Source: Acidobacteria bacterium Ga0077553 (GTDB lineage: Bacteria; Acidobacteriota; Terriglobia; Bryobacterales; Bryobacteraceae). From it: DNA of 64,000 nucleotides. Position 1 is the stretch's first letter. Every line of letters begins with the position of its first letter. The translations under genes and the position numbers were made by a program. The notes beneath the pieces are model-generated. The model did not search any database and was not told where the DNA came from. It saw only the letters and a program-made list of their open reading frames with translations. The DNA is taken from positions 1-64,000 of the forward strand of contig LNFE01000110.1 in the NCBI GenBank assembly GCA_001464575.1, written 5' to 3'. This document shows, piece after piece, positions 4,153 through 49,827 of the stretch.

Positions 4153-5736
4153 ATGCGAACAGGCGTGACGACGAAAGCGAAAGCCTATCTGGTCGGTGGA
4201 GGGATCGGATCGCTCGCCGCCGCGGCGTTCCTGATCCGCGACGGCAACGTCCCAGGCCACAACATCACGATTCTCGAATCGGCTCCGATTCTGGGCGGAA
4301 GCTTGGACGGTGCGGGCGACCCGGTCCACGGGTACTCGATGCGTGGCGGGCGGATGATGACGACGGATAACTATGAGTGCACCTGGGATTTATACAAATC
4401 AATTCCTTCGCTCACACGGCCCGGCATGTCCGTCTTCGAGGAGACCGTGGAGTTCAACGAGATTCACCGATCGAACGCCATGGCGCGCCTGGTCGACCGG
4501 CGTCGCGCGAAGGTGCCCGTCGCCTCAATGGGGTTTTCCATGCAGGACCGCCTGGAACTGCTTAAGCTCAGTCAGGCCACCGAGGAGAGTCTGGGCGCCA
4601 GCCGGATCACGGACTGCTTATCCCCGGCCTTCTTCGAAACGCCGTTCTGGTACATGTGGTCCACCACGTTTGCCTTCCAGCCGTGGCATAGCGCGGTGGA
4701 GTTTAAGCGCTACCTGTTGCGCTTCGTGCTCGAGTTCTCCCGCATCGAAACACTGGGCGGCGTCAAGAGAACGATCTACAACCAGTACGACTCCCTGGTT
4801 CTGCCCTTGCAAAGCTGGCTGATGGACCAGGGGGTCCAACTCATCACCGGGTGCCAAGTGACTGAAATCGGTCATCAAACCAACGGCGACGAGTTCGTCG
4901 TCACGGCTCTGCATTGCTTGCGGGCCGGCAAGGTGGAACACATCGACGTCCTGGACGGCGATCTCGTCTTTCTGCAGAACGGCTCCATGACTGACGCCTC
5001 CAGCCTCGGTTCGATGGGGAGCGCGCCTCCGAAGCGGACGAAGGCGGATAGCGGCGGTTGGGCGCTCTGGGAAAGCTTGGCCGATGGGCGCCCGCAATTC
5101 GGGCGGCCGGCGGTGTTCAACTCCTCCATCGCGCAGGCTTGGTGGGAGTCGTTCACGGTCACCTTGAAGCACCCGTCGTTTTTTGATCAGATGGAGCAAT
5201 TCAGCGGGAATGAGGCCGGCACGGGCTGCCTGGTGACCTTCAAAGACTCCAACTGGCTGATGTCCATCGTCCTGGCCTTTCAACCGCACTTCGCCAATCA
5301 GCCGGCCGACGTCCAGGTGTTTTGGGGATACTCGCTGTTCCCGGATCGCATTGGAAACTACGTCGCGAAATCGATGACGGAATGCAATGGCGCCGAGATT
5401 CTGGAGGAGCTCTGCGGTCATCTGCGGTTCGAACTCACCACGATGGCCACGGCCAATTGCATCCCTTGCCGGATGCCCTACCTGACGAGCATGTTCATGC
5501 CACGCGTGCCCGGCGACCGGCCTTTCCCCGTTCCCACGGGTTCGAAGAACCTCGCTTTCGTGAGCCAGTTTGTGGAGATTCCGGACGATGTCGTCTTCAC
5601 CGTGGAGTATTCGGTTCGGGCGGCGCAGATGGCCGTTTATCAGTTGCTCGGCATCGATCGGAAGATCCCGCCGGTGACGCCCCATGCTGCGTCCCACCAC
5701 GCTCAGTTTGATGCATTGCTGAAGGCCTTCAAGTGA
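4153..5736 (+). CDS. ohyA: Oleate hydratase (myosin-cross-reactive antigen family)
   Basis: FAD-dependent hydratase that adds water to the cis-9 double bond of unsaturated fatty acids to give 10-hydroxy acids; 527 residues, slightly short for the family. Visible signatures are the N-terminal Rossmann motif (YLVGGGIGSLAAAAFL, residues about 10-25), the ESAPILGGSLDG segment, the family motif MRGGRMM, and family-typical blocks such as FWYMWSTTFAFQPWHSAVEF, IYNQYDSLVLPL and CIPCRMPYLTSMFMPR. The known role is detoxification of unsaturated fatty acids or membrane lipid modification. The start is the ATG at 4153; a GTG five codons later is also possible. The next gene begins within its stop codon, so translation is coupled and the two are an operon. 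Confidence 0.95.
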   Translation: MRTGVTTKAKAYLVGGGIGSLAAAAFLIRDGNVPGHNITILESAPILGGSLDGAGDPVHGYSMRGGRMMTTDNYECTWDLYKSIPSLTRPGMSVFEETVEFNEIHRSNAMARLVDRRRAKVPVASMGFSMQDRLELLKLSQATEESLGASRITDCLSPAFFETPFWYMWSTTFAFQPWHSAVEFKRYLLRFVLEFSRIETLGGVKRTIYNQYDSLVLPLQSWLMDQGVQLITGCQVTEIGHQTNGDEFVVTALHCLRAGKVEHIDVLDGDLVFLQNGSMTDASSLGSMGSAPPKRTKADSGGWALWESLADGRPQFGRPAVFNSSIAQAWWESFTVTLKHPSFFDQMEQFSGNEAGTGCLVTFKDSNWLMSIVLAFQPHFANQPADVQVFWGYSLFPDRIGNYVAKSMTECNGAEILEELCGHLRFELTTMATANCIPCRMPYLTSMFMPRVPGDRPFPVPTGSKNLAFVSQFVEIPDDVVFTVEYSVRAAQMAVYQLLGIDRKIPPVTPHAASHHAQFDALLKAFK

Positions 5737-6845
5737 GGGGTGCCATTCGCCGCCAAGACGTCCTGAAACTAGTTTCGGTTGGCGGGATCGCCGCGCTCTC
5801 GGCGCACGCGCTGCATGAGTACGTCCCGTGGGTCGACTATGATGGGCAGGCGGCCACGTCCAGAAAAGGCTCGTCGCCGAATGCCCCGGCTCCGCTTAAG
5901 ATGCAGGGCCTCGTCCGTTATGCGACGCTTGCCGCCAACGGGCACAACGCTCAGCCTTGGAAGTTCGAAACGCTTGCGGATGCGATTGAAATTCACCCGG
6001 ATTGCTCGCGCCGCTTGGTCGCGGCCGACCCATCGGATCGGGAGCTCTGGATCAGTCTGGGGTGCGCGCTCGAGAATCTCGTCGTTGCTGCTCGCGCGAT
6101 GGGGTATGAACCCGCGATCACTTATCCCGATGCCAACGACGTTATCCGCGTCTCCTTATCCCCAGCCACGCCGCGGTGGAGCGCCACATTCGATGCCATT
6201 CCCCGGCGGCAGTCCACGCGGTCGGAATACGACGGCAAGGCCGTGGCTGCCGGCCAACTCCACCAGTTGCGGACGATGCCCCTTGAAGAAGGGATCGCCA
6301 TCCACACCGTTGTCGACCGCAACGGCGTGTCCACCCTGGCTGGCTACATCTATGAAGCCACGCTGAGACAGTATTCGAACCCGCCGTTTCTGGCCGAGTT
6401 GATCCGCTGGTTGCGTTTCGACAAGAAGGAAGCCCTCGCATCGTTTGACGGACTGTTCTCCCCGTGCGCGGGCAGTCCGGCCGTGCCACGTTGGCTGGGA
6501 CGCTTGTTCGTTAGCGGCGCCAAGCCAGAGAACCTGGCTGCGGCCGACGTCAGGAAGCTCGAAAGCTCGGCTGGCGCCATCGTGATCACGTCGGCCGCAG
6601 AGGGTAAGTCCGACTGGGTGCGTGCCGGCCAGGTTTGTCAAAGGCTGACGCTGACGATGACCTTGGCGAATATCAAGTCCGCCTATTTGAATCAGCCCAT
6701 CGAAGTGCCGCCCCTGCGTTCGCAGTTGCGCAGCAGTTTGGGCCTTGACGCGGCCTATCCCCAACTATTAGTTCGATTCGGCTACGCCAACGCCATGCCA
6801 CGCCCGCTGCGTCGCCCGGTGGAACAAGTTTTGATGCCGTCATAA
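5733..6845 (+). CDS. Acg-like nitroreductase-fold protein
   Basis: 370 residues. After an N-terminal hydrophobic stretch (LKLVSVGGIAALSAHAL), the core begins with the family block VRYATLAANGHNAQPWKFE, which is typical of the Acg subgroup of nitroreductase-like proteins. Later blocks (SDRELWISLGCALENLVVAARAMGYEP; RRQSTRSEYDGK) fit the same family. In mycobacteria Acg proteins bind FMN as storage or stress proteins without proven enzymatic activity, so calling it a reductase would be too strong. The start is GTG at 5733, overlapping the stop of the oleate hydratase by four bases (GTGA), which fixes the start and indicates coupling. The hydrophobic N-terminus could be an export signal; there is no twin-arginine motif. 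Confidence 0.8.
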   Translation: MRGAIRRQDVLKLVSVGGIAALSAHALHEYVPWVDYDGQAATSRKGSSPNAPAPLKMQGLVRYATLAANGHNAQPWKFETLADAIEIHPDCSRRLVAADPSDRELWISLGCALENLVVAARAMGYEPAITYPDANDVIRVSLSPATPRWSATFDAIPRRQSTRSEYDGKAVAAGQLHQLRTMPLEEGIAIHTVVDRNGVSTLAGYIYEATLRQYSNPPFLAELIRWLRFDKKEALASFDGLFSPCAGSPAVPRWLGRLFVSGAKPENLAAADVRKLESSAGAIVITSAAEGKSDWVRAGQVCQRLTLTMTLANIKSAYLNQPIEVPPLRSQLRSSLGLDAAYPQLLVRFGYANAMPRPLRRPVEQVLMPS

Positions 6846-6857
6846 CAAAAGGAACCC

Positions 6858-7862
6858 ATGTCATCGATCAAAAGCAAAGAAGTTCGTCTTGTCAGCCGCC
6901 CGGAGGGAGTACCGACGGCCGCTAATTTTACCGTGGCTACTACGGAGCTCCCGCCGCTCCAAGACGGAGAGGTGCTGGTTCGCAACCTCTTCCTCTCCGT
7001 TGACCCGTATATGCGCGGCCGCATGAACGAAGGGAAGTCCTACGTGCCAAGCTTCGAACTGGGTAAAGCCATGGATGGAGGGGCCGTCGGTGAAGTGGTC
7101 GAATCGCGCGCGGCTGCACTCAAGACCGGGGACGCTGTCGTTTCCAGCCGCGGCTGGCGGGAATACTTCATCGCGCAACCGTCAGAGCTGCATGCGGTAA
7201 GCCGAGACCTGCAACCCTTGTCCCTGTACTTGGGAACCCTCGGCATGACGGGGATGACCGCGTGGGCCGGCCTGCGGCTCGTGGACGTGAAAGCGGGAGA
7301 AGTGATCTTCATTTCCGGGGCTGCTGGCGCGGTGGGCAACGTTGCCGGACAACTGGCGAAGCTGCGGGGGTGCACGGTGATTGGATCGGCAGGTTCGGAG
7401 GAGAAGGTTCAGTTTCTGCTGCGCGAATGCGGCTTTGACTACGCCTTCAACTACAACGCCGGCCCGATGTCGCCTCACTTGAACACGGCCGCGCCGAACG
7501 GCATCGATGTCTACTTCGACAACGTGGGCGGGCCGGCTCTCGAAGCGGCGCTTTCCGCCTTGCGCATTCACGGCCGGATCATCGCCTGTGGCGGGATCTC
7601 TCTGTACAACGAACAAACTCCGCAGCCCGGCCCTTCGAACCTGTTCAACATGACAACGAAACGGCTCACCATGAAGGGTCTGATTGTGGGCGACTGGATG
7701 AGCCAGCAAGCTGAGTTCGAAAAGGAAGCGGGCGGCTATTACCAATCCGGCAGGTTACGGCATCGGGAAACTGTTGTGCAGGGCATCGACCAAGCGGCGG
7801 CGGCCTTCATCGGGTTGTTCGACGGAGACAACATCGGGAAGATGGTGGTGGCGTTAGCGTAA
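6858..7862 (+). CDS. NADP-dependent MDR oxidoreductase (CurA / leukotriene B4 reductase-like)
   Basis: 334-residue zinc-independent medium-chain reductase that reduces activated double bonds with NADPH. The N-terminal catalytic domain carries the family block FLSVDPYMRGRMNEG; the Rossmann domain carries SGAAGAVGNVAGQLAKLRGC and IGSAGSEEKVQFL; DVYFDNVGG follows at about residues 218-226. No zinc ligands are visible, as expected for this group. AAGGAACCC lies just before the ATG, giving a credible ribosome site. It starts 12 bases after the Acg-like gene and is probably the third gene of the oleate hydratase operon. Substrate unknown; enone or enal products of lipid oxidation would suit the context (inference). 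Confidence 0.9.
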   Translation: MSSIKSKEVRLVSRPEGVPTAANFTVATTELPPLQDGEVLVRNLFLSVDPYMRGRMNEGKSYVPSFELGKAMDGGAVGEVVESRAAALKTGDAVVSSRGWREYFIAQPSELHAVSRDLQPLSLYLGTLGMTGMTAWAGLRLVDVKAGEVIFISGAAGAVGNVAGQLAKLRGCTVIGSAGSEEKVQFLLRECGFDYAFNYNAGPMSPHLNTAAPNGIDVYFDNVGGPALEAALSALRIHGRIIACGGISLYNEQTPQPGPSNLFNMTTKRLTMKGLIVGDWMSQQAEFEKEAGGYYQSGRLRHRETVVQGIDQAAAAFIGLFDGDNIGKMVVALA

Positions 7863-7870
7863 GTCCTGGA

Positions 7871-7898
7871 TTGACTCCTGGGGCGAATGAGATAGGAT
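7871..7898 (+). promoter_or_regulatory. Sigma-70-type promoter of the GH5-like gene
   Basis: TTGACT at 7871-7876 and TAGGAT at 7893-7898 are separated by 16 bases. The ATG of the glycosidase at 7906 is seven bases beyond the -10 box, so transcription would start at or next to the start codon, giving a leaderless message. Confidence 0.6.
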
Positions 7899-7905
7899 GT
7901 GGGGG

Positions 7906-8964
<1,059 letters not shown>

Positions 8965-9656: not shown

Positions 9657-14189
<4,533 letters not shown>

Positions 14190-21902: not shown

Positions 21903-22453
21903 ATGCCTGCTCCCGACCGGTCTGACATCACCCAAATCCTTACCGCTTGGCGCCAAGGCGACCCTAGCGCTCTTTCCGATCTCACCCCCCTGGTCTACGG
22001 CGAACTCCACGCTCTGGCGGCGAACTACCTCGCTCGCGAACGCCCCGGCCACATCCTGCAGCCCTCCGCCCTCGTCAACGAAGCCTTCCTCCGGCTGATG
22101 CAGTGGCAGCCCGGCGAGTGGCAGAACCGCGCCCACTTCTTCGGCGTATCGGCCACCCTCATGCGCCGCATTCTGGTCCACTCCGCCCGCGAAGCCCAAA
22201 CCGCCAAACGCGGCCAAGGCGCCGTCCGGGTCTCTCTCTCGGAAGCCGACCAAGTCGCCGCCGCCCAACCCGTCGATACCGACGTCCTCGCCCTCGACGC
22301 CGCTCTCGACGCCCTCGAAAAGAACTACGCTTCTTCGCCGGCCTCTCTCTCGAAGATACCGCCCTCGTCATCGACGCCTCCGTCAGTACCGTCCGCCGGG
22401 ACTTCCGCATGGCCCAAGCCTGGCTCTTCCAGCAGCTCAGCCCCGCCCCATAA
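21903..22453 (+). pseudogene. ECF sigma factor (TIGR02999-like), frameshifted in region 4
   Basis: Sigma-70-family ECF factor of the group common in acidobacteria. Region 2 is intact (LVYGELHALAANYLARERPGH, LVNEAFLRLMQW, RAHFFGVSATLMRRILVHSARE). At about 22320 the frame changes: the first frame ends ...DALEKNYASSP, while the second resumes with ELRFFAGLSLEDTALVIDASVSTVRRDFRMAQAWLFQ, the helix-turn-helix of region 4. The usual LDPRQARVV-like linker of about 9 residues is missing, so a short out-of-frame deletion is likely. The start at 21903 has TATCCT seven bases upstream, suggesting a leaderless transcript. The matching Ser/Thr kinase begins six bases after the original stop. Confidence 0.75.
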
Positions 22454-37080: not shown

Positions 37081-37188
37081 GATGTTCTGCACATGATAAG
37101 CCACTCTCAAGAAATTCCGCAACGCTTTTCGAGAAGAAGGTCTCAACAAGCCCTTGCGCAAGTAATGAGAAACCATTATCGTGAAAGC

Positions 37189-40092
37189 ATGAAGCTCTAC
37201 CTGCTCCTCCTGGCCCTCGGATCGTCCTGCGCCGCACTGGCCCAGAACGTCAATGGCATCGTCGCCGGCTCCGTCCTCGACCCCGCCGGCGCCGTCGTCT
37301 CCAACGCCCGCGTCCGCGCCCTCCTGCCGGAACGCCAAGGCTCCCGCGAAACCACCACCAACGATGCCGGCCAATATCGCTTCGTCGGGCTCACCCCCGG
37401 CCTCTACAACCTCACCGTCGAAGCCCTCGGCTTCGCCGTCCACGAACGCACCGGCCTCGAAGTCTCCGTCGGTTCGCCCCTCCAAGTCGATATCCAACTC
37501 TCCGTCTCCGCCGTCTCCGGTTCCGTCACCGTCACCGAGTCCCTCGACGACGTCGCCCGTAGCCTCAGCTCCGCCACCCGCGGCGCCCTGTTCAACGAAC
37601 AGGCCCTCCAAAACATCCCCGCCCTCGCCGGCCGCACGAGCCGCAACTATTCGAGCCAGGTCTTCCTCCTCCCCGGCGTCAACCTCAGCCGCACCCCGCA
37701 CGCGCCCTTCTCCATCAACGGCAGCCGCGGCCAGGGCATGACCAACGTCATGGTCGACGGCGCCGACTTCAATAACCCCAACTCCGGCTCCCTCCTCGGC
37801 GCCAACTTCACCGAGCAACCCGTCAGCCAGGAGGCCCTCCAAACCGTCGAAGTCCAAACCTCCAACTTCAAAGCCGAATACGGCCGCGCCGGCGGCGGCA
37901 CCATCAACCTCATCACCCCCAGCGGCGGCAACCAGTTCCACGGCCGCTTCTACGAGTTCTTCCGCAACGACGCCCTCGACGCCCGCAACAGTCTCAACGC
38001 CGAACGGCCCACCCTGCGGCAGAACCAGTTCGGCGGCCTCCTCTCCGGCCCCATCATCCGCAACCGCCTCTTCTTCGCCGCCAACGGCGAATGGATGCTC
38101 CAGCGCGCCGCCAACTCCGCCGTACCCCAAGCCACCTTCTCCCAGGCCGAACGCGACCGCGCCGTCCCCGCCATGCGCGCCCTCCTCGCCACTTACCCCC
38201 TCCCCAACGCCACCTCCGCCACCAACGTCCCCCTCTTTGATCCCGGCCGCATCGCCGAAGTCCTCACCGGACGCACCTGGTTCGGCAAGCTCGACTGGCT
38301 GGCCTCGGAAAAGCACCAGTTCGGCTACCGCTACACCCACGCCGAAAGCCTCCGCCGCGCCGCCAACAACTTCGCCACCGGTTCCGCCGGCTGGAATGAG
38401 GTCTACAGCCATACCTTTAACCTCACCTCCACCCTCACCCCCAACACCGTCAACGAAGCCCGCGCCTACTACACCAGCTACAACATCCCCCTCTGGCCTA
38501 TGACGCCCCTCCTCGGCAACCCCGCCGTCAACGGCACCGTCGGCCTCCTCAGCGTCACCGGCGCCGCCTCCCTCGGCACCATCTTCCGGGACGACTCCCG
38601 CACCCACAACTACCAGGTGCAGAACGATCTCTCCCTCACCCGCGGCCGCCACGGCATCAAACTCGGCATCATCGCCCGCCGCGTCCAGATCGCCACCACC
38701 TCCCGCTCCCTCGGCGACGGCCAACTCGTCTTCGATAGCCGCGAACTCTTCCTCCAGGGACGCCCCCGTACCTACACCCGCGTCCTCGGCGACACCCGCC
38801 TCGACCAGCAACAATACGAAGCCGGCTTCTACGGCCAGACCGACTACCGCGTCCGCCAGAACCTCACCCTCAACCTCGGCGCCCGCGCCGAACACTACGG
38901 CGCCCCCGCCGATCGCCACGGCCGCCTCACCCCCAACTACGGCACCGGCCTCAGCGTCGCCCCCCGTTTCGGCTTCGCCTACACCCCGGGCTCGCAGCAA
39001 TCCCTCGTCCTCCGCGGCGGCTACGGCCTCTTCATCGCCCCCCTCGCCGCCCGCTACGTCGGCCTCACCCGGCTCACCCCGCCCCGCGTCCGCACCGTCA
39101 TCGCGCTCAACCCCGCCATGAACGATCTCCTCGGCGGCCCGCTCGTCGATTCCACCAACCTCACCATCACCGACCCCAACCTCCGCCAGCCCTACGTCCA
39201 ACAGTGGAACCTCACCACGGACTACCGCCTCCCCGCCACCAAGCTCGTCGCCTCCCTCGGCTACGTCGGTACCCGCGGCGTCGCCCTGCCCATGACGCGC
39301 CTGCCCAACGGCGGCGATCGCCTCGCGCCCAATCTGCGCCCCAACCCCGCCGCCGGCGTCGTCTCCCTCCTCGAAACCGCGGCCATGAGCTCCTATCATG
39401 CCCTGCAGTTCTCCCTCAACGGCCAGGTCACGCGGCAGATGACCCTCCGCACCTCCTACACCTGGTCCCGCTCCATCGACGATGTCAGCCGCGACACCGT
39501 CAACATCATCGCGCAGAACAACCGTCGTCTGGACCGTGCCGTCTCCGAATTCCACCTCTCTCACAACTTCACGACGGCCATGGTCTACGCCCTACCCGGC
39601 GCCGGTTCCGGCGGCCTCGCCCGGACCCTCTTCGGCGGCTGGCAGGTCTCGCCGGTCATCCAATGGCGCTCCGGTTTCCCGTTCTCCATCCTCTCGGGTG
39701 GCGACACCCCCGAAGGCGTCCGGCTGAACCGGGTGAACGACATTGCGGGAACCCTCGAACGCCGGCAGGACGGCGTCTTCGGCCTCCTCCCCGGCTCCGG
39801 GCTCACGCTCGCCCAGGTGCGCCAGCAGATCACCCCGGCCAACAACACCTTCGGCACCCTGGGCCGCAACACAGAGCGGGCGATGCCGTTCTTTGACCTC
39901 AGCGCCGGTTTGCAGAAGTCCTTCCGCTTGACCGAGCGGCTGGGCCTTGAAACCCGCGTCGAGGCCTTCAACCTCTTGAACAAAGTGAACTACGACGTCT
40001 ACTCCGGCAACCTCCTCGATCCCCGTTTCGGCCAGGCCACGTCCGCCTTCCCGGCCCGGCAGATTCAGATCTTGCTCCGCATTAGTTTCTAG
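37189..40092 (+). CDS. Oar-like TonB-dependent outer-membrane receptor
   Basis: About 967 residues. A signal peptide (MKLYLLLLALGSSCAALAQ) precedes a carboxypeptidase-regulatory-like domain (GSVLDPAGAVVSNARVRAL, YRFVGLTPGLYNLTVEALGF), a plug domain (GQGMTNVMVDGADFNNPNSG, VEVQTSNFKAEYGRAGGGTIN) and a long barrel ending in FGQATSAFPARQIQILLRISF. A terminal aromatic residue is expected for outer-membrane insertion, so this copy looks intact. The start is the ATG at 37189; no strong ribosome site is visible. It diverges from the ABC exporter operon. The ligand is unknown; acidobacterial relatives are thought to import or bind oligosaccharides or peptides. Confidence 0.9.
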   Translation: MKLYLLLLALGSSCAALAQNVNGIVAGSVLDPAGAVVSNARVRALLPERQGSRETTTNDAGQYRFVGLTPGLYNLTVEALGFAVHERTGLEVSVGSPLQVDIQLSVSAVSGSVTVTESLDDVARSLSSATRGALFNEQALQNIPALAGRTSRNYSSQVFLLPGVNLSRTPHAPFSINGSRGQGMTNVMVDGADFNNPNSGSLLGANFTEQPVSQEALQTVEVQTSNFKAEYGRAGGGTINLITPSGGNQFHGRFYEFFRNDALDARNSLNAERPTLRQNQFGGLLSGPIIRNRLFFAANGEWMLQRAANSAVPQATFSQAERDRAVPAMRALLATYPLPNATSATNVPLFDPGRIAEVLTGRTWFGKLDWLASEKHQFGYRYTHAESLRRAANNFATGSAGWNEVYSHTFNLTSTLTPNTVNEARAYYTSYNIPLWPMTPLLGNPAVNGTVGLLSVTGAASLGTIFRDDSRTHNYQVQNDLSLTRGRHGIKLGIIARRVQIATTSRSLGDGQLVFDSRELFLQGRPRTYTRVLGDTRLDQQQYEAGFYGQTDYRVRQNLTLNLGARAEHYGAPADRHGRLTPNYGTGLSVAPRFGFAYTPGSQQSLVLRGGYGLFIAPLAARYVGLTRLTPPRVRTVIALNPAMNDLLGGPLVDSTNLTITDPNLRQPYVQQWNLTTDYRLPATKLVASLGYVGTRGVALPMTRLPNGGDRLAPNLRPNPAAGVVSLLETAAMSSYHALQFSLNGQVTRQMTLRTSYTWSRSIDDVSRDTVNIIAQNNRRLDRAVSEFHLSHNFTTAMVYALPGAGSGGLARTLFGGWQVSPVIQWRSGFPFSILSGGDTPEGVRLNRVNDIAGTLERRQDGVFGLLPGSGLTLAQVRQQITPANNTFGTLGRNTERAMPFFDLSAGLQKSFRLTERLGLETRVEAFNLLNKVNYDVYSGNLLDPRFGQATSAFPARQIQILLRISF

Positions 40093-40126
40093 GCGAAGCC
40101 AAACAAAGCCAACCCCCGGAAAAACA

Positions 40127-40152
40127 CTGGGCCCTTCCGGGGAAGGGCCCAG
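40127..40152 (-). terminator. Rho-independent terminator of the second Oar-like receptor
   Basis: A perfect 12-base inverted repeat (CTGGGCCCTTCC and its complement) with a two-base nominal loop. On the minus strand it is followed by TGTTTTT. It begins eight bases past the minus-strand receptor stop. Confidence 0.8.
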
Positions 40153-40159
40153 CGACAGT

Positions 40160-43100
40160 TTAGAACTGCAACATCACAGTCAGATTCATGAGGGGCTGAC
40201 CACCGAGCGAAGCCGTCCGGGGATCGTCGGTGAGTTTGCCAAACGTTTGCGGGTTCCGGAAATCGACGGTCGTCGTGGGTCCGGTGAAGTTAAACGTCTT
40301 GAACGCATTCTGCATATCCCAACGCAACTGAACCCTCGTCCGCTCCTTAATCATAAAGTTCTTCTGGAGCGAGATTTGAGCCCAAGCCATGCTGGGTCCC
40401 GTCAGGATGTTACGGCCCGCGTTACCGATTTGAAACGCCGCCGGATAGGCGAACGCATTCATGTCAATCACCGCCGGTCGATTATTGGTGACAAACCGGT
40501 CGCCGCCGCCGTTGTTCCACTTGCTGAAGTCGTAGTCTGGCGAGCTCACCACGTTCGGACGGCGGTTGCCGGCGAAGCCTGGGTAGTAGTTGAACGGGCT
40601 GTTGGCAAAGGAGAAATTCAGAGGATTCCCCCATTGCCCATCCGGCTGTTGGTCATCCACCGCTGTCCTTTACCGAAGGGCAGGTCATAGTCGACTGTCG
40701 CGATAAAGCGATGGTTGCGGTCATAGCCGGCGCGGCCTTTCTCGAGTCTCCGGTTCTGAATCGGAGCAACGCCACCACCGCTGTTATCGGTATCGGCGCT
40801 GTTGATCGCTTTCGAGAACGTGTAGAACGTCGAGAAGAACAAGCCCCGCGACATGCGCTTTTCGAGTTTCACCGTTCCCGAATGGAACGTCGAATGCCCG
40901 AAATTGGAGCGCATCGAGATGTTGCCAAAGTGCGGATAGGGCCGGAAGTTCTGCGCAGCGGCAAACACCCGGTCCCGTTGCGCCGGGTCGTTCGCGAACA
41001 GGTCGACCGGAAAAGAATTGAGCTCCCACCGTTCCACCAGTCCTACGCCGCTCGAGCCCTGATAGCTCAGTTCGATCGTGTAATCGCGGGCGATTTCATT
41101 CTGAATCGAGAAGTTCCAGTTCATGACATACGGATTGCGCAGGTTCGAATCCCACATGGAGACATTGCGCCCGCTGAAGTTGGTCCCGCGGAACGGGCTC
41201 GACCCATCGGGAAGGACCACCGGGGCCGGCGGAGCGGTCCCGCGGCTGATCTGGTAGACCGGCGTCGGGTTCCCGGGCACCGACTCCTGTACCGCCGTGC
41301 CGACATACTCGTCGTACTGATCCCGGCCAGACGGGAACTTGACGTCCACCGTGTAGAAGCCGAAACCGCCGCGGAAAACCCACTTCTCAAAGGGGTGCCA
41401 AGCCAGGCCGAGACGGGGATTGAAGTTGTTGTGGTCCCCATTGGTCAGCGCGTTTTTCGGATGAACGATCGCGCCACGGTTACCCGTGAGAGGATCGGTC
41501 GCCCCGGGGTCGAACTGGCTCATCAAGCCATACTTCGTATTGAAGGCGCTTTCATTCGAATAGCGCAGCCCCATGTTGGCGGTCAGCTTCGGGGTGATCT
41601 TCCAATCGTCCTGAATGTAGAAGCTATGAATGTTGGCCCGCGGCAGCCAACTCGTCAGCTCGGTCAGGAACGTCGCCGACGTCACATAACCGGTCAGGAA
41701 GCCCGCAAACGGACTGCCGGTATTGGGCACGGGTGCGCCGTTCGCCTGCAGCCCGACCGTCGCGTTCGAGAAATCGAATCGCACCGGGTTAGCCAGAGTC
41801 GCCGAATTCAGCCGGAAACGCAGAATCTCGTAGCCGGCCTTGTAGGCATGGGTGCCCTTAATGATCGACAGATCGTTCCGGAACGAGATCGTCTCGTTCA
41901 CACTCCTCGTCGGCGTGACGCCGGTGAGTCCATAGATGGAACTCGGGTTGTTCCGGTCCCCGCTGCCAAAAGCGGGCATCAGGTCCGCGTTGATGTTCGA
42001 AATGCCGAGCTGCTGCCCCCAACCCTGTTGGAAAGACGGCGCCGTCCGCTCGGCCCAACGGCGGTTGTACCCGACGCGGGCGTCGTTGACGATCGTCGGC
42101 GAAATGATCCAGGTCTTGCCGAACGACATGTTCTGATTCCGCGAGGGAGCGGTGCCGCCTGCCGAGCCATCGAATTCGCCCCGGTCCGGCCGAATGTTCC
42201 ACGGGCGTAAGAGTCCGGGAAGGTACTTGTTGTCGGTCCAGGAAAAATAGATCTTGAAGGCGGTGCTGAACTGATGATCGAAGCGGTAGTTATAGTCGTT
42301 CAGATACACCTGCGCGAGTTCATTCGCCAGGTAGTTGCCAGCCGCGCCCGTCGAAATGAAGCTTCCTTCGCGGTTGGGTAGTTGCCACGGGTCGAAGTCG
42401 AGAACCTTGCGGGCCACGGGATCGATGCGGCTCGGCGGGATGATTCCACCCGCGAAAGGATCACGCTGCCAGACCCCGTTCACCAGCCGGGTGGTCGCCG
42501 GGTCGAAAATAGAATTGGCGCCGGGAAAGTTGAAATCGCCCCGGCGCATGCCCAGGCTCGGGACCGAGGAATCAACCTGCGCCACTTTCTTCTCGTGGAG
42601 ACGTTGAAAGCCAAAGAAGAAGAAGGTCTTGTTCTTGCCGTTGTAGATCTTCGGAATTACCACCGGACCGGAAACGGAAGCGTCCGGCATCATGAAGAAC
42701 GAAGGAACGCCGTTCGGCGCGGTGGGGGTGGCCTGTGAGGTGCGGAGACGGTCAAAGAACAGCCGGTGTTGCATCCGCCGCGTACGGCCGTACCAGGAGC
42801 CCATCATGTGGAGTTCGTTCGTTCCGGTCTTTTTGACGGCGTTGATCACACCGCCGGCGGAGTGCCCGTATTCGGCTGGAGGCAGCGTCGTGATCACCTT
42901 CACCTCGGCGACCGAGTTCAAGATGGGCTTGGTGGTCTCTGTTCCGCCCTGCTGATCGTTGCCGTTCACGCCGTCTTCGAAGATGCCGATAGCGCCGGCG
43001 CGCTGTCCCGCCAGGTGATAAGCGCCCAGCGAACCGCCGTAGGCATAGCCGCCGGTGGTCATGCCAGGAACCAGATTCATCGTCGAGTTGACGAAGCGCT

Positions 43101-43539
43101 GATAGAGCGGGAGGTCGTAGAGGACTTCACCGCTGAGCACGGCGCCCGTCGTCGAGGTCTCCGTCTCGAGCGCGGGCACGGCGCCCGTGACTTCCACGGA
43201 CTCGGTGAGTTGACCGACCTGCATGACGGCATCTACCGCGAGGGTGTCACCCGTGCGGAGTTCGACACTGTCCCGAATGGCTTTCTTGAATCCAGTCAGC
43301 TCGAAGGTAATCCGGTAGGTGCTGGGTTGCAAGGAAAGCACGCGATAGATGCCTTCTGCGTTGGTTGTGGTGGTGGACGTGAAGTTCGTGCTGGGTTGCA
43401 CCACGATTACGCTGACATTCGGAACGACTGCCCCGGTCGAGTCGGTCACGCGGCCGGTCAACGTTGAGGTGCCGATCTGCGCGAACGCCGTTACCGTGAA
43501 CAGCGCTGCGGCCAATGATAGTTTGGCGAAAGACTGCAT
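40160..43539 (-). pseudogene. Oar-like TonB-dependent receptor, C-terminal sixth out of frame
   Basis: About 1,120 residues in two frames. The N-terminus has a signal peptide (MQSFAKLSLAAALFTVTAFAQ), regulatory domain (GRVTDSTGAVVPNVSVIVV) and plug (AGQRAGAIGIFEDGVNGNDQ; PPAEYGHSAGGVINAVKKTGTN). The first frame stops at 40618 after TNSRMGNGGIL. In another frame the last 160 residues continue as GNPLNFSFANSPFNYYPGF and end in NLTVMLQF, a proper barrel end. Relatives have about 15 residues between RMGN and GNPLNF, so a short out-of-frame deletion lies at about 40635. GGAGG is seven bases before the ATG at 43537-43539, which fixes the start. It ends at a terminator shared with no other gene. Confidence 0.78.
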
Positions 43540-43759
43540 GGATGAACCTCCAAAGATCTGTCTGAACGCCCGTGTCAGTTCAATGACGCAATTGATACGA
43601 GCCCGGCGATTATATGCAAAGAGATTCTGGGTTGCAAGGCTCACCTAATCTCTTATTTCGCTAAGTTTTGTGGGAGTCGGCGCTGCTCCCCTCCGCCTGG
43701 CCTGCTCCGCCGCAATCCTTTCTGGCGCGCTCGCGCAACGGAGAGTGATTCCGGCGGGC

Positions 43760-43950
43760 AGGTGGGTTCGAGGGAACGATCTCGCGGGAATCCTGGAGCG
43801 CCGGCACTTCGGCCTGCGGCCGGCCCGTTTCTGAACCGCATCAACGGGGAAGACAACTCGGGTAACCTTGTCAATCCCCGTTTCGGCCAACTTACGTCCA
43901 CCCTCCCGGCCCGCGAGGAGCAGTTGCTGATTTCGCCTGAACACAGCCGC
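43760..43950 (+). pseudogene. Relic of an Oar-like receptor C-terminus
   Basis: On the plus strand, FLNRINGEDNSGNLVNPRFG followed by QLTSTLPAREEQLLIS closely follows the end of the intact receptor (LLNKVNYDVYSGNLLDPRFG then QATSAFPARQIQILLRIS). Bases just before it (around 43765-43800) also resemble a segment 150-200 bases earlier in that gene, so there has been internal deletion. No upstream part of the gene remains. Confidence 0.65.
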
Positions 43951-43979
43951 CACGGGACAAGCCTGCTATGCAGAGAGTA

Positions 43980-45096
43980 AATCGCGCCGCGAACTCTGCC
44001 ACTGCCCCAAGTCATCCGTCCCGAAGGTTCTCTAGTGGGTATCCGGCCGGCCGGCCTCCCCGCACCTCAGCAGCGAGCTGCTGTCGAGTTGATTCAGGAA
44101 TGGGTTCTGCGGTTCGAGCGACTACCATCGAACGCTCTGCTGAGTTTTGCAAGCCTGGACCGCTCGTCATTCACACTAACCCGGAGAGTTGGCCAGACTG
44201 ACGAGTGCCAGGCACCTCCGGTCTTTCCACTAAGTCGCGGTGGCCCGTTGCTGTGGCGAACCGATGGTGTGTTGGCTCGACAGGACCCCGCCGATGCAGT
44301 CTAAGTCGGCGGGCCCGTCGAGGGCGGTGTCGCATTCGGTTGCGGTGTCGAATTCGGTTAAGGAGGAGGCCACAGTTCGGCCGGGCGATCCTGCCGCATC
44401 GTCGACGTCGTCCGCGTTAAGCCGGGTCAAGACATTCCAGCAATCGACCGGCGGAGTGCGGTTCGCTCGCATCCCTGTCCGCTTGGCGTCGGGCACGGGA
44501 TCCGCACGCAGCGTCTCCTCTGGCAACAGCCGCGTCCGCTCCTGCGATCGGATGGCGCGAGCCCATGAGTTGTATCGAAGGCGGTCATCTGCAGACGAAT
44601 TTCCGATGGCTCCTCGAATTTCGCAGCTTCTCCTGGCGCATGGGCAAGACAAGTTTGCAATGGTGCTCGCCAGCCACCCGCCAAGGCTGTGCCTCGACGG
44701 CATTCGCATCCGGTCTTGCCAGGATCGTCAGGTGAACACGGCCGGGGCTGGGTTGTACCTGGGCATTGCGGATCGGAGCATATCCAGGGTCTCCTTTATG
44801 CGCTCAAGTCGGCGCGCCACTCCTCGTGAAGAAACCTTCGCCGGCGATCGCCCCCGGGAGTCTTAGCTCGATCCCGCAGCTCCGCGGTCAATGACTGTGC
44901 TCCGGTTTCCATCAAGGCGAGGTAGACTCGCGCGACGCCCGGCAGGCACACGGTCGCAAGTTGCGTGAGGCACTCGTCAGTCCGCCAAGTGGCCTTTTCA
45001 GGCGCTTCACCGGCAGCACTGTCTCGGCTGCTGCTCGGCTGCCACCTTGCGCCAACTTCGCTGGACACCCCACAACGCAGAACGGCGACGGGTAGC
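43980..45096. other. Gene-poor stretch of 1.1 kb
   Basis: No reading frame here matches a family I recognise, and frames on both strands have mixed composition. It separates the receptor relic from the caspase operon and probably contains decayed coding sequence. It includes the short tandem repeat listed separately. Confidence 0.4.
44326..44361. repeat. Two-copy 18-base tandem repeat
   Basis: GGTGTCGCATTCGGTTGC is followed at once by GGTGTCGAATTCGGTTAA (15 of 18 identical). Too short and isolated to be more than a small duplication. Confidence 0.6.
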
Positions 45097-45530
45097 CTAC
45101 GCCCCGCTCCGCCAGCAAAGCAACCCGGAGTCTCCCACCCGCTCATTCACCGCCCGCCGGAGTAACGGTAGGTTCTTATGTTCCACGGAGTGCTTCTCCG
45201 CCATCCCAAGTAGCCGCAGCGCCCCAAACCAGAACAGCGGAATCCCCTTATCCAGTGCCTCCCGGCACTCCACCACCGTCACCTCCTCCCCTCCCAGCCG
45301 CCGCGCCTCCGCCGCCAGCACACTCGTATCCGCCAGCCCGTCAAACCGTTCCCGCAAATGCGTCACCGCCGCCCGCAACCCCTCCCCGTCTCCAACCTCG
45401 TTGTTCAGCGCCAGCCGCAAGTGCGCATATCCCAGCAGCAGCTCTGCCATCGGGTCTTCGTGCTCGTTCAGAATCGCGCCATCCCGGTCGCCCGGCTCCA
45501 CGCTCAAAACCCGGACCACTTCCGCATACC
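45097..45530 (-). pseudogene. Out-of-frame C-terminus of the caspase-like protease
   Basis: In the neighbouring frame the coding sense continues with YAEVVRVLSVEPGDRDGAIL, LGYAHLRLALNNEVGDGEGL and FGALRLLGMAEKHSVEHKNL to a stop at 45097. A one-base deletion after GGG at about 45530 (LLQRRLG then YAEVV) would explain the break. If the base is restored, the protease has about 800 residues with a helical, possibly TPR-like, C-terminal domain. Confidence 0.75.
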
Positions 45531-47507
45531 CAGCCGCCGCTGCAAAAGAATTTCCCGCTCGGAACCGCGATCCTCCCGCATAAAAAAGCACGAAGCCGAC
45601 GTTTCTCCCCAAGCCGGCCGGTACACAATCAACGCCGACACCCACCCTGCCAACGCGGGCGGCGCGAACATCAGGCTTCTCCCCTTCTCACTCCGCAGCT
45701 CCAGGAAATGGGTCCCCGGCCTCACCGCCGCCGAAAACCGCCCCACGCTCTCCACGGTCGTCCCCGCCCGCAGCGCCGTCCTCACTCGGGGCTTCGCCTT
45801 CCCCACCGGCCAGACTCGTACCGTCGCCCCCCGCAGCGCGCCATCCCCTTCGTCCACCACCGAAAGCTGCACCGCCGCCTCCTGCCTCGGCTTCCGCAAC
45901 TCCCGCCAAACGTTCAGCCCCATCTGCCGCAGCCGCGCCACCGGCTCCAACGCCTCCCCTGCCATTCCCGCCATCTCCGCCATCGCCAACAGCCCCGGCA
46001 CGTCCAGCAGCGCCGCCGCCGGCGCGCCCAGGGTCTCCAGAATCCGCAGGGAACGATCGCTGTTCACTCCAATCTCTCCCGTCCGCCGCAACTCCTCCAT
46101 CACGGGGCCGCCTGCCCCCGGCGGCGAATCCAGCACCACCTCCTCCCGCTCTCCCGCCTCCAGCGCCACCATCTCTTCCACCGGCAAGCCCCCCGGCGCC
46201 AAAACCTGGCAACGGTAGATCCCCGGCTTGAGGTCCCGCTGCTCCACCCTCTGCCGGCCCGTCCCCACCGTCTCGTCCTTGCCGTTCACCACCCGCACCA
46301 GCGCTAGCGGATCCAGCGTCCGCGCCACAATCGTCCCCGTATCCGCCTCAAATCGGGACGCCGGCCTCGGCGTGAAATCTTCCTCGCCGTTTCCATCAAA
46401 ACCCAGGATCGAACTCGGCCGCCCCATCTCCTCCTGCCGCCGAAACCGCAGCGCCACCGTCAAGTCCCCGTAAAGCGGCGCTGCCCAGCTCTTCCTCTCC
46501 GGCTCATATCCTCGGGCCGATCCCTTCACCCGGTACTCCCCTTGCGCCAGCTCTGCCCTCGCCTCCGCAATCGGCGGGTCAAACTCGGCCTCCTCCACAT
46601 CCCCCAAAACATGGACCCGCGCGCTCGCGCCCGCGTCCGCTGGCGTCACCGTGAACTGCATCTTCGCCTTCGCCACCGCCGCCACCGGCACCACCCGCAC
46701 CACCGTCTCCGTGTTCGCCACCTCTCCCGCCAGCCGGGGCTCCTGCGGAAATTCACCCGCGGGAGCCAGTCCCAACGCGGTCACCGTCTCCCTCACCCGC
46801 GCCTGGACAAAACCCAGCAGTCGCCCCACCGTCACCAGATACCGGTCCCCTTCTGGATCGTACCGCTTCGCCTCGCCCTCCCCCCGTAAGCCCCGCAGCA
46901 GTGCCCCGCTGAACACCCCGCCCTCTTCGTTCTCCTGCGCCGTCACCCCTCGCGACGTCGCCAAAAACACATACTGCTTCACCGCCGGCCGCAAACTCTC
47001 CGCCTTTGGTTTCATCGCGAAGGGGCCGATATTGAAGTCCCCGGGCACCGGAATGTTCCGGCAAGCGTCGATGAAGATAAACTGCTCGTCAAATTGCGCT
47101 ATCCGCAGATAGGCCAAGATCCCCGCCACCTCAATGGACGCCGTCGTCACGTCCGGCTGATACTCTTCCGGCAGGATGGCGTGGCCCTCGCTCATGCCCG
47201 GCGCCAGGATCCCGTGTCCGGAAAAATGCAAAAAAAGCCGCTCCCCCCGCTTCTGGGCGATCTCCTTCACCGCCTTGGTAATGTTCGCCGCCGTAGCGTT
47301 ACGAAAAGGGAGAGAGCCGGCCGGCGTCGGGCTCGCCGCCGTCCGGCTCAAGAGCAGGATCAACCGGTCCGGGCTATCGATCAGCGGCGCGGGGCCTTCG
47401 AGCAAGAGCTCCGCCATCGCCACCGCATCCCCCACTGCCCCCTTCAGGTTCAGCCGGGACGCGTTCGGATAGCTGTCCACGCCAATGACCAACGCCCAGT
47501 TCGCCAT
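45504..47507 (-). CDS. Caspase-like protease (peptidase C14) with C-terminal beta-rich domains
   Basis: 667 residues in this frame. The N-terminal p20-like caspase domain (about residues 1-250) starts with WALVIGVDSYPNASRLN and has the catalytic His98 in LHFSGHG and Cys149 in FIDACRN; the loops around both fit the family. After it come two or three strand-rich modules (KMQFTVTPADAGASARVHVLG; GIYRCQVLAPGGLPVEEMVAL) resembling PEGA-type or Ig-like domains, then a helical region. The gene starts 17 bases after the gasdermin stop, with GAGG five bases before the ATG, so they are co-transcribed. In characterised systems the protease cuts the neighbouring gasdermin. At about 45530 the frame changes (next entry), so the protein is longer in its original form. 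Confidence 0.9.
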   Translation of the reverse strand: MANWALVIGVDSYPNASRLNLKGAVGDAVAMAELLLEGPAPLIDSPDRLILLLSRTAASPTPAGSLPFRNATAANITKAVKEIAQKRGERLFLHFSGHGILAPGMSEGHAILPEEYQPDVTTASIEVAGILAYLRIAQFDEQFIFIDACRNIPVPGDFNIGPFAMKPKAESLRPAVKQYVFLATSRGVTAQENEEGGVFSGALLRGLRGEGEAKRYDPEGDRYLVTVGRLLGFVQARVRETVTALGLAPAGEFPQEPRLAGEVANTETVVRVVPVAAVAKAKMQFTVTPADAGASARVHVLGDVEEAEFDPPIAEARAELAQGEYRVKGSARGYEPERKSWAAPLYGDLTVALRFRRQEEMGRPSSILGFDGNGEEDFTPRPASRFEADTGTIVARTLDPLALVRVVNGKDETVGTGRQRVEQRDLKPGIYRCQVLAPGGLPVEEMVALEAGEREEVVLDSPPGAGGPVMEELRRTGEIGVNSDRSLRILETLGAPAAALLDVPGLLAMAEMAGMAGEALEPVARLRQMGLNVWRELRKPRQEAAVQLSVVDEGDGALRGATVRVWPVGKAKPRVRTALRAGTTVESVGRFSAAVRPGTHFLELRSEKGRSLMFAPPALAGWVSALIVYRPAWGETSASCFFMREDRGSEREILLQRRLGMRKWSGF

Positions 47508-47524
47508 GCCCGCCTCGCTCCCGT

Positions 47525-48340
47525 CTACTCTTCTTCCACCTGCAAGCGGAAGAACGCACCCTCCTCAAGTGTCAGCAGTGTCGGCTCCACATGTCCGGCC
47601 GACCGCGCCGCCGCCGCGCCCGCTTTCAGCGGGTCCATCGCCACGTAGACCGGAGAGCCATTCATCTCGTCCGCAAACAACCGGACGGCCTGAAATCCAA
47701 ACACTACCGGTGTCGTGCCTTCGTAGGTCACCGTTCCCTCGGTCGCCCGCGCCGTGTCCACGCTGAGTGTTCCGCTCGCTACACCCGAAACCACCGGGAC
47801 GTCCAAACCTACCTTCACGCCCCCTTCCCCTTTGGCGTTGATCTTGAACTTAGTCGTCTTGAGCGTCGAGGTGATTACGTAAACCTCATCATCAATTAAC
47901 GCGTTCGTCACGGAAATCATGTCCGGCCGGAAGCTGCACGCCGTGAGATACTGGTCCAGCTCGTCCACCGCGATGTGGTCTTCGAGGACATCTTCAAACG
48001 TGAACGTCATCGTTTTCGCGGAGGAAAACCCCAGCGAAACCCCCAGTGTTTTGCCACCCAGCGCCTGAATCAGGTTACCGAGGATATTCACGCCGACTTC
48101 CACCTTCGTCGTGCTGCTCTCTTTGCCTGATATCCCGATCGGGGCGACGTTATCGAGGCTCAACCGGGGCAGGGAATTGGCCCCGCCGGTCGTAATGGTG
48201 GCCAACTCGCCGAGGCGGGTCAGGTCCTTTCTGCCGGCCTTGCGCAGGGTCTGCAGGGGGCGGGCGTCGGACCGCGGCATGCGTAACACGCAGTATCCGC
48301 GATCTTTCAAATAGGTGATGGATTCGTCAGGACGGGACAT
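47525..48340 (-). CDS. Bacterial gasdermin (bGSDM), pore-forming effector
   Basis: 271 residues, the usual bGSDM length. Family blocks are visible in order: ITYLKDRGYCVLRMPRSDARPLQTL (about 8-32), RLGELATI, ISGKESSTTKVEVGVNILGNL (about 70-90), LGGKTLGVSLGFSSAKTMTFTFEDV, YVITSTLKTTKFKI, DVPVVSGVASGTLSV and PVVFGFQAVRLFADEMNGSP (about 211-230), then a C-terminal tail of about 45 residues. Known members are held inactive by a short C-terminal peptide, cleaved by a neighbouring protease, then form large membrane pores that kill the cell in phage defence. The ATG at 48338-48340 has GGAG six bases upstream. The only cysteines are Cys17 and Cys135. The 17-base gap to the caspase gene supports the pair. 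Confidence 0.88.
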   Translation of the reverse strand: MSRPDESITYLKDRGYCVLRMPRSDARPLQTLRKAGRKDLTRLGELATITTGGANSLPRLSLDNVAPIGISGKESSTTKVEVGVNILGNLIQALGGKTLGVSLGFSSAKTMTFTFEDVLEDHIAVDELDQYLTACSFRPDMISVTNALIDDEVYVITSTLKTTKFKINAKGEGGVKVGLDVPVVSGVASGTLSVDTARATEGTVTYEGTTPVVFGFQAVRLFADEMNGSPVYVAMDPLKAGAAAARSAGHVEPTLLTLEEGAFFRLQVEEE

Positions 48341-48397
48341 GATCATCTCCAGGGGCCGAACCGATCGGGTAACTACTTCGTGGGAACGGCCAACCAC

Positions 48398-48425
48398 AGT
48401 ATAGGGCACTGCTGCCGAATGCCAA
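48398..48425 (-). promoter_or_regulatory. Sigma-70-type promoter of the gasdermin operon
   Basis: On the minus strand TTGGCA (48420-48425) and TATACT (48398-48403) are spaced by 16 bases, about 57 bases before the gasdermin ATG. This is close to consensus. Confidence 0.65.
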
Positions 48426-48506
48426 TGTCGCTGGATGACGGTGCCACCGGATTGCTAAAACGTTTCTTGCGGCTGCGCCGCAATCAAGAAAAGAGAATCA
48501 AGCGAA

Positions 48507-48990
48507 TCACTCCCGGAGACAACGGAACCCATGCTGACGTACCGGTCGCCCGGCCCACTGTGGTCACGCCCCACCGAGCACAGGAACCCCGCATCGAAGT
48601 CGAAGGCCCCGCCCCGCAGCGAGAACGTCTCCTGCCTTTCGTCGTAGTAGCTGCCGGTCCACTCCCAAGCATTGCCGGCCAGATCCGAAACGCCCTCCGG
48701 CGTACTACCGGCCGGGAGAAGGCCCACAGGCGTCCTGCGGCCCGTCCGCATGCCAAAGTTGGCCAAGTCCTCCCCCGGTTCCTGGCCACCCCAAGGAAAC
48801 TCTCGTTTACCGTCTCCGCTGCTCGCCGCCGACCACTCGGCATCAGTCGGCAGCCGCACCACTCGCCCCGTTTGGCCGCTCCACCAGCGGCAATAGTCCG
48901 ATGCCCCATGATGATTCACCCAAATCACCGGCCGGAAAGGAAACCGCTGCTGGTTTTCCAAATCGAATGGCGCATCCGCCCCCGGGTTAG
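48507..48990 (-). pseudogene. FGE-sulfatase-domain gene, N-terminally truncated and frameshifted
   Basis: Remnant of a formylglycine-generating-enzyme-like domain. The second half is recognisable (PVIWVNHHGASDYCRWWSG, RLPTDAEWSAASSGDGKREF, TPVGLLPAGSTPEGVSDLAGN, AWEWTGSYYDE). The ordinary first half (MGAQ.., YPVTVxEFxxF) is missing, cut at about 48990. Near 48530 a one-base deletion after GGG moves the end out of frame; with it restored the protein ends GFRCLRE at the TGA in 48507-48509. It lies 5' of the gasdermin promoter on the same strand. Confidence 0.7.
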
Positions 48991-49415
48991 CCGCCGTCAT
49001 TGAGCTGCTCTGCCAGCAGGTAGAGCGCCCCGGCCCCGGCACGGAAGCCCTCCTCCCGTCGCTCTTTGATGCGCTGCTGCTCTATACCTTGCGAGCGTGG
49101 GGCAAGCGGCAGTGTGCGTCGCCGGGCGGGCGGATGGTGGAGAGTTTAGCGCAGGTGGCGGGCCTGTCCGGGGCGGTATTTGCGAAGCGCGTTGCGGAGG
49201 TATCGGGGGAGGGGCCGGTGACTTACCGAACGGGATGGCGGATGCGCCTGGCGGCGAGGCGGATTACGGGGGGCAGGGAATCGCTGAGCGAACTCGCCCG
49301 CCAGTTGGGTTACAACTCCGAATTCGCCTTCAGCCGAGCCTGCAAGCGCCAAACGGGCCAGTCCCCCGGGGCCTACCGCAAACAACGCCGCCCCGCCCGG
49401 ACGCCCCCGAGCTAG
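48990..49415 (+). pseudogene. AraC-family regulator, N-terminally truncated
   Basis: In frame from about 48990 the reading is ELLCQQVERPGPGTEALLPS, LFDALLLYTLRAWGKRQ, then the AraC DNA-binding region (VESLAQVAGLSGAVFAKRV, WRMRLAARRITGGRESLSELARQLGYNSEFAFSRACKR, GQSPGAYRKQ). The N-terminal cupin-like half is absent and about 15-20 residues are also missing between RAW and VESLA. There is no ATG or ribosome site. The break coincides with the break of the FGE remnant on the other strand. Confidence 0.7.
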
Positions 49416-49827
49416 GGGCGTCGCCCTCGCTGGGAAACTGAATTCCGCCGCTCCGCCTTCGGTTCGCTGAGACCAGCCGAACAGCGAGCGGCCGTCCGTC
49501 CGCCACCGGCACATCCCCCGCGTAGCCCGCTGCGCCAACTCGAACTCCTGGGGAACAACGACGCCCGAATGCCCTTTCGCATCTCCGGGAACCCGATTCT
49601 GCATCGGCGGCCGACGGCCTGCGCCGCGCTTTCGGCGAGCGACGATCTGCATCGACGGCCCTTGGGTTTCGAGAGAGAGGATCAACATCATAGACAACCA
49701 AGCGCCTAGCCCCGCGATTCGTCAGGGCTCGCCCGTTAGGGCCAGTAGCGATTGCCATTTCCCTTGAGAACGAAACCGAACGGGCAATCAATGTCGCCAC
49801 CGGAGAGACGAGGTCGGGAGAATCGGG
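49416..49827. other. Gene-free stretch
   Basis: About 410 bases between the AraC relic and the PIN toxin gene. I see no credible coding frame, hairpin or repeat here. Confidence 0.4.

Follow-up and report, generated by a model that had tools for sequence, protein, structure and literature searches.

A gasdermin-caspase gene pair in a soil acidobacterium, most likely laterally acquired, with the end of its caspase gene broken or misassembled

The soil acidobacterium Acidobacteria bacterium Ga0077553 carries, on contig LNFE01000110.1 (assembly GCA_001464575.1), a bacterial gasdermin (bGSDM) gene followed closely by a gene for a caspase-like protease. The stretch of the contig that was analysed, here called the window, is 64,000 nucleotides (nt) long, and coordinates refer to it unless another locus is named. 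Judged from its sequence, the gasdermin-caspase pair is real and belongs to a known kind, and most likely it has been laterally acquired, but the end of the caspase gene is broken or misassembled and the system may not be intact. It is quite probable, in our judgement, that this is a horizontally acquired bGSDM system of the known kind, in which the caspase would cut the gasdermin, the gasdermin would form pores and the cell would die before the phages are released. A preliminary description of this DNA had proposed a gasdermin and a caspase in an acidobacterium, and this is borne out by the family profiles, by a solved gasdermin homologue and by a Solibacteraceae contig with the same pair; the description overlooked the frame break in the caspase gene, a truncated FGE-sulfatase (FGE) gene next to the pair, and the island in which they all lie.

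The gasdermin has 271 residues and is encoded at 47525..48340 on the minus strand, in an open reading frame (ORF) that was confirmed. It matches the PADLOC bGSDM profile PDLC02986 with an E-value of 2.7e-77, covering positions 1-254 of the 257 in the profile, and the NCBIfam profile NF051890 with 1.3e-55 and 188 bits over the whole profile (1-203 of 203, cut-off 100), both far beyond chance, so the earlier assignment of this protein to the gasdermins stands. A Pfam search of the same 271 residues matched no family. Among the solved gasdermins, phmmer found PDB entries 7n51 (2.9e-31) and 8sl0 (1.8e-29); the former, which we take to be from Vitiosangium sp., is homologous to the window's gasdermin over residues 5-265 and about 31% identical to it. 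The gasdermin fold is attributed to the protein on its homology to 7n51, because the AlphaFold models were too poor. Close upstream of the gene, at 48398..48425 on the minus strand, is the sigma-70-like promoter match that had been pointed out before (TTGGCA-16-TATACT). It agrees with the consensus in 10 of 12 positions and is the sole match between 44500 and 49200, where shuffled sequence gives 0.2 on average.

The gap between the gasdermin gene and the ATG of the caspase gene (47507) is 17 nt, and the caspase ORF extends over 45504..47507 on the minus strand and encodes 667 residues. Residues 3-238 match the C14 caspase family of Pfam (PF00656, 5.7e-15), and both residues of the catalytic pair are kept, His98 in LHFSGHG and Cys149 in FIDACRN; spacing and catalytic pair are thus as they had been described. 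The PADLOC profile for the protease of bGSDM systems, PDLC02987, matches residues 1-667 with 6.7e-115 over profile positions 1-414 of 453, and parts of the extra modules are insertions, since the 667 residues span only 414 profile positions. Weaker matches are those to NCBIfam caspase_w_EACC1 (NF047832; 40.5 bits, below the cut-off of 140), to CarboxypepD_reg at residues 546-606, below the Pfam cut-off, and to two metacaspase-9 sequences at E ~0.005, the sole solved chains that match the caspase by sequence. The region past the caspase domain, after about residue 238, does look beta-rich, as the preliminary description had it, but the helical end that was placed in the same frame lies in another one, in the ORF 45097-45645, and the single ORF stops at 45504 instead of continuing as one gene down to 45097.

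The stop can be compared with a close relative, the locus L008 (JALSRK010000046.1), on a contig of a Solibacteraceae metagenome-assembled genome that is the same as that of L061 and is contig C46 of genome G562, which is ranked in the same family as the genome of the window. There the gasdermin is 59% identical to that of the window, the gene order is the same, and the caspase begins 19 nt on and is encoded in one frame of 847 residues. When this caspase was aligned by tblastn, its residues 1-667 matched 47507-45531 in frame -3 with about 35% identity, and its residues 691-833 matched 45513-45100 in frame -2, also with 35% identity. The helical part at 45100..45513 (minus strand), inside the ORF 45097-45645, thus belongs to the same ancestral caspase gene, and the frame break at 45514..45530 consists of 17 nt where L008 has 23 residues (69 nt). 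The codon-position GC content of the orphaned helical end, 0.75/0.43/0.80, is coding-like. The order of regions in the caspase, the helical end included, is the same in L008, to whose caspase PDLC02987 also matches, with 7.2e-37 over profile positions 1-330 and residues 1-529, a lower score than for the window caspase. The suggestion of an entirely new architecture is therefore not supported, because the PADLOC profile spans the ORF from end to end and L008 shares the order of the regions; no published description of the exact domain order of the caspase turned up in our literature search. L008 differs from the window in what surrounds the pair. Its caspase is followed by a Trypsin_2 plus LCAT/alpha-beta hydrolase gene and then by two NTPase genes, AAA/NACHT-like but below the Pfam cut-offs, and these genes resemble the more complex operons in the review PMC9612521. 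Its nearest upstream ORF is sulfatase-like by eye and not FGE, and a search of L008 8200-9400 gave no sigma-70-like match.

Gasdermin-caspase operons and FGE/C-type-lectin neighbours of gasdermin genes are described in the same review (PMC9612521). In systems such as that of Runella zeae the gasdermin gene stands beside a gene for a caspase-like protease, as in the window (PMC9079055 and PMC9612521). According to these two papers, a short C-terminal peptide holds bacterial gasdermins inactive, neighbouring caspase-like proteases make the cut, and the freed part forms pores. The latter places the cut behind a Leu or an Arg, some 20 residues before the C-terminal end, and notes that such proteases are often encoded beside bGSDMs. 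The killing is protease-dependent, and a Lysobacter operon has been shown to protect E. coli from phages (PMC9079055). Lysobacter-type operons have trypsin-like and ATPase partners, of which the queries derived from L008 find none in the window. We hypothesize that a signal, most likely phage infection, would activate the C14 caspase of Ga0077553, which would then cut the gasdermin near its C-terminus, the best candidate site being after Arg246. Such a cut would remove a short inhibitory tail, predicted at 25 residues, and the gasdermin would assemble into pores that would kill the cell ahead of phage release. The middle part of the caspase and its helical end, perhaps together with the FGE/C-type-lectin neighbour, may sense or restrain.

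The candidate cleavage site can be compared with those of the relatives. An AAR motif is common to the gasdermins of the window, L008 and L029; L064 also has Arg in this column of the alignment, but in other surroundings, and the remaining 12 rows have none there, out of 16 that were usable once the row of L073, read in a wrong frame, had been dropped. The tail of 7n51 is without the motif. In the caspases of the window and of L008 an Asp stands two residues before the catalytic Cys (DAC), which is the metacaspase-like arrangement favouring Arg or Lys at P1, and the DAC arrangement fits with such a preference for basic residues. The candidate P1 residue is Arg in the window, as compared with Leu247 in Runella.

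The frame break has to be seen against the state of the rest of the contig. Genome G403, of the same genus, is collinear with much of the window, and when its ORFs of at least 150 residues (spurious antisense ORFs included) were compared with the window, counting as a match 90% of the length at 60% identity or more, 24 matched in full and four gene loci were divided in the window by a change of frame. The four do not include two antisense ORFs at these loci, two multi-frame ORFs of poor conservation and two partial matches. The four are caused by deletions in the window of 38 (13+25), 49, 28 and 46 nt relative to G403, located at 13928-13933, 14951, 22321-22323 and 40632, the last in a TonB-type frame. 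In the reverse comparison of window ORFs with G403, 26 matched in full and eight in part, and there was no clear split of a conserved gene, only two overlapping divergent ORFs at 25.2-26.6 kb that match G403 in two frames. Another contig of the same genome, C151, gave a similar result: 21 G403 ORFs match it over their full length and a single gene falls into three frames, the longest deletion in its alignment being 40 nt, and the reverse comparison gave 22 full matches and no split. The split genes across the window and C151 could be explained by an assembly defect or by widespread micro-deletion. Homopolymer slippage as the cause of the four breaks is unsupported, since these are deletions of 28-49 nt.

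With similar breaks in unrelated genes, frame breaks are not special to the caspase. We give about even chances to the explanation that the break in the caspase gene is an artefact of the assembly and that the gene would be whole in the organism. In its favour are the four split loci and the C151 gene, the lack of a clear reverse case in G403, and the similar look of the caspase break, which has 17 nt against 69 in L008. Genuine micro-deletions would look identical, however, the size of the breaks is atypical for single-base sequencing errors, and the size of the lost piece of the caspase is uncertain because the reference is only 35% identical. Since four genes of the contig and one of C151 are broken alike, an assembly artefact is at least as likely as decay as the cause of the caspase break.

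The gasdermin and caspase genes are located on an island that is absent from G403. That genome matches the window at 37152-43701 and again at 48987-49445, and in between there are 5285 bp in the window (43702..48986) and 529 bp in G403. The 529-bp stretch contains the beginning (5' part) of a long frame of the AraC family; in the window a 3' remnant of it is left at 49089..49415 on the plus strand (Pfam HTH_18, 6.2e-17; the frame is longer in G403), and we read the island state as derived, the island having replaced the 5' part of the AraC-type gene. From the AraC side the order in the island is the truncated FGE gene, the gasdermin gene, the caspase gene and 1.4 kb (43702-45096), where the four ORFs tested had no match in Pfam. 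The FGE-sulfatase gene (C-type-lectin fold) lies at 48455..48986 on the minus strand and is truncated at its 5' end, matching PF03781 with 1.2e-18 over profile positions 90-198 of 255. Its ORF extends to 49042 by antisense reading into the sequence shared with G403, and a GFRCLRE-like end is found, by eye, in another frame. FGE/C-type-lectin genes occur near some known gasdermin genes in the published accounts, and the remnant in the window is consistent with such a neighbour.

The remnant is 37% identical to an FGE protein encoded outside the island, at 51953-52882. That gene and a second FGE-sulfatase gene at 53891-54610, truncated to profile positions 3-170 of 255, have a DNA identity of 86% along some 720 bases, and an ORF with a PIN domain lies between them (53195-53644). 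Next to the AraC remnant there is another stretch missing from G403, 793 bp at 49446-50238 with a near-exact junction, that holds a DUF3368 ORF (49828-50133, PADLOC PDC-S70); the adjoining UPF0175 ORF (50334-50624) is in sequence shared with G403. The idea that the FGE gene is the target of a diversity-generating retroelement was also considered and set aside: there was no match to reverse transcriptase in the organism's own draft genome, which is 92.9% complete, in a search whose control was positive in three of 14 named genomes.

Boundaries of a transposon or integron were sought at the island without success. The two junction stretches of 300 bases share no 10-mer and have one 9-base inverted match, neither a target duplication nor repeats at the ends of the island were observed (the repeats in 43500-49300 are not at its ends), and the ORFs that were compared with Pfam included no transposase. 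A phage or plasmid origin was likewise rejected, with one plasmid record holding a 24% identical gasdermin and none for the caspase; viral contigs, searched with the caspase only, had no relative of it, and the phage records were queried with neither protein. The island could in principle be a chimeric assembly join, foreign to this genome, as this contig may contain assembly defects of short range and the GC content of the caspase reaches 0.72 in 500-base windows, compared with 0.57-0.69 in the profiled flanks. We regard this as very improbable, since the sequence on either side of the island follows G403 with order and orientation unchanged and a chimera would thus need two errors, and codon-position GC is broadly like that of two other genes of the window.

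Several observations speak against the proposed reading. The protease gene is not intact in the assembly, as its ORF is interrupted, and the FGE gene beside the pair is truncated. The three partner genes of L008 have no homologue in the window (tblastn, E 1e-5), and the first and the last of them gave nothing in the organism's own genome, in a search that had no positive control. In L029 the Arg is present, yet the 16 kb examined there gave no match to the caspase, and the Arg is therefore not strictly tied to a caspase. Palmitoylation of an N-terminal Cys has been described for the majority of bGSDMs, although not for all, and this Cys is absent here: the gasdermin of the window has Cys only at positions 17 and 135 and none among its first 12 residues, unlike Runella-type systems, and palmitoylation there is thus not expected. 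A Cys within the first 12 residues is found in seven of 15 usable gasdermin sequences, the window's included, a count that leaves out L066 (5' end cut) and L073; at L063 a Cys comes just past a possible later start. Finally, the AlphaFold models made from two-row alignments with L008 were unusable both for the gasdermin (pLDDT 32) and for the caspase (pLDDT 44).

It is possible, although we rather doubt it, that the locus is a decaying and non-functional import, an island with a truncated FGE gene, a broken caspase and a gasdermin without a working protease. The frame break points in this direction, as do the missing 5' part of the FGE gene with its typical end out of frame, the absence of the L008 partner genes, and the distribution in the genus. 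In 18 other genomes of the genus the caspase has no match and the gasdermin has one, in G413, and selection for the pair in the genus is thus not evident. Against decay, the gasdermin has an uninterrupted ORF with 59% identity to that of L008, both catalytic residues of the caspase are kept, the helical end has retained a coding-like codon structure and the same 35% identity as the rest of the caspase, and unrelated genes of the contig have similar frame-breaking deletions.

The bGSDM profile has matches in four of 396 genomes of the phylum and in 14 of 257 of the order, the window's own genome included in both samples, and the caspase profile has matches at E 1e-20 in 26 of the 396. In the phylum sample only the caspase of the window extends past profile position 269, and its score of 384 bits is followed by one of 117 for the second-best match. 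We compared 16 distinct relative loci (L008, L029-L031 and L062-L073) in a partner search by tblastn at E 1e-4, with the proteins of the window and L008 and two partner proteins of L031 as queries. Some of the 16 loci are cut by contig ends, and the proteases covered are the C14 type and those labelled, by eye and not from a profile library, as CHAT- and C25-like. Within the fetched stretches one locus, L008, has a C14 homologue; nine, L031 among them, have CHAT- and/or C25-like homologues of the two L031 partners; and neither was found at the remaining six. The loci with CHAT/C25 partners come from the same phylum and mostly the same order, and their gasdermins belong to the same PADLOC family as that of the window but are only 23-26% identical to it.

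Individual loci show what other neighbours there are. The L029 gasdermin (G325, 7504-8313 of that locus), 45% identical to the window's and with the AAR motif kept, has a membrane protein of rhomboid type (5052-6239) and a gene resembling PP2C on its flanks, both labelled by eye. At L067 (3262-7647) and L068 (3217-7506) the CHAT- and C25-like partners are followed by NTPase-like proteins (by eye) of 1461 and 1429 residues, which are possibly sensors. The gasdermin of L070 (G519, 7538-8374), 31% identical to that of the window, stands in a stretch where the protease queries were unmatched.

A tentative idea, and one that we think is rather unlikely to hold in full, is that the window represents a compact acidobacterial bGSDM-C14 sub-lineage without the N-terminal Cys, cut after a conserved Arg and with its sensor in the middle and helical end of the caspase. 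The gasdermins of the order would otherwise be mostly CHAT/C25-driven, and protease and sensor would have been swapped while the pore was kept. A literature search for gasdermin, Acidobacteriota and defense systems together found no paper, and one that combined gasdermin, formylglycine and caspase gave just two, PMC10907252 among them.

The frame break in the caspase gene is a warning for the automated annotation of defence genes in draft genomes. With the locus in Ga0077553, a gasdermin with a caspase partner is placed in a lineage in which, of the 16 other gasdermin loci examined, 15 have different proteases or lack every type that was searched for, and it comes with a clean empty site in the same genus and a close relative that has kept a fuller operon. 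The contrast within the lineage, the empty site and L008 thus make both the swapping of protease partners and an Arg-directed cleavage of the gasdermin testable.

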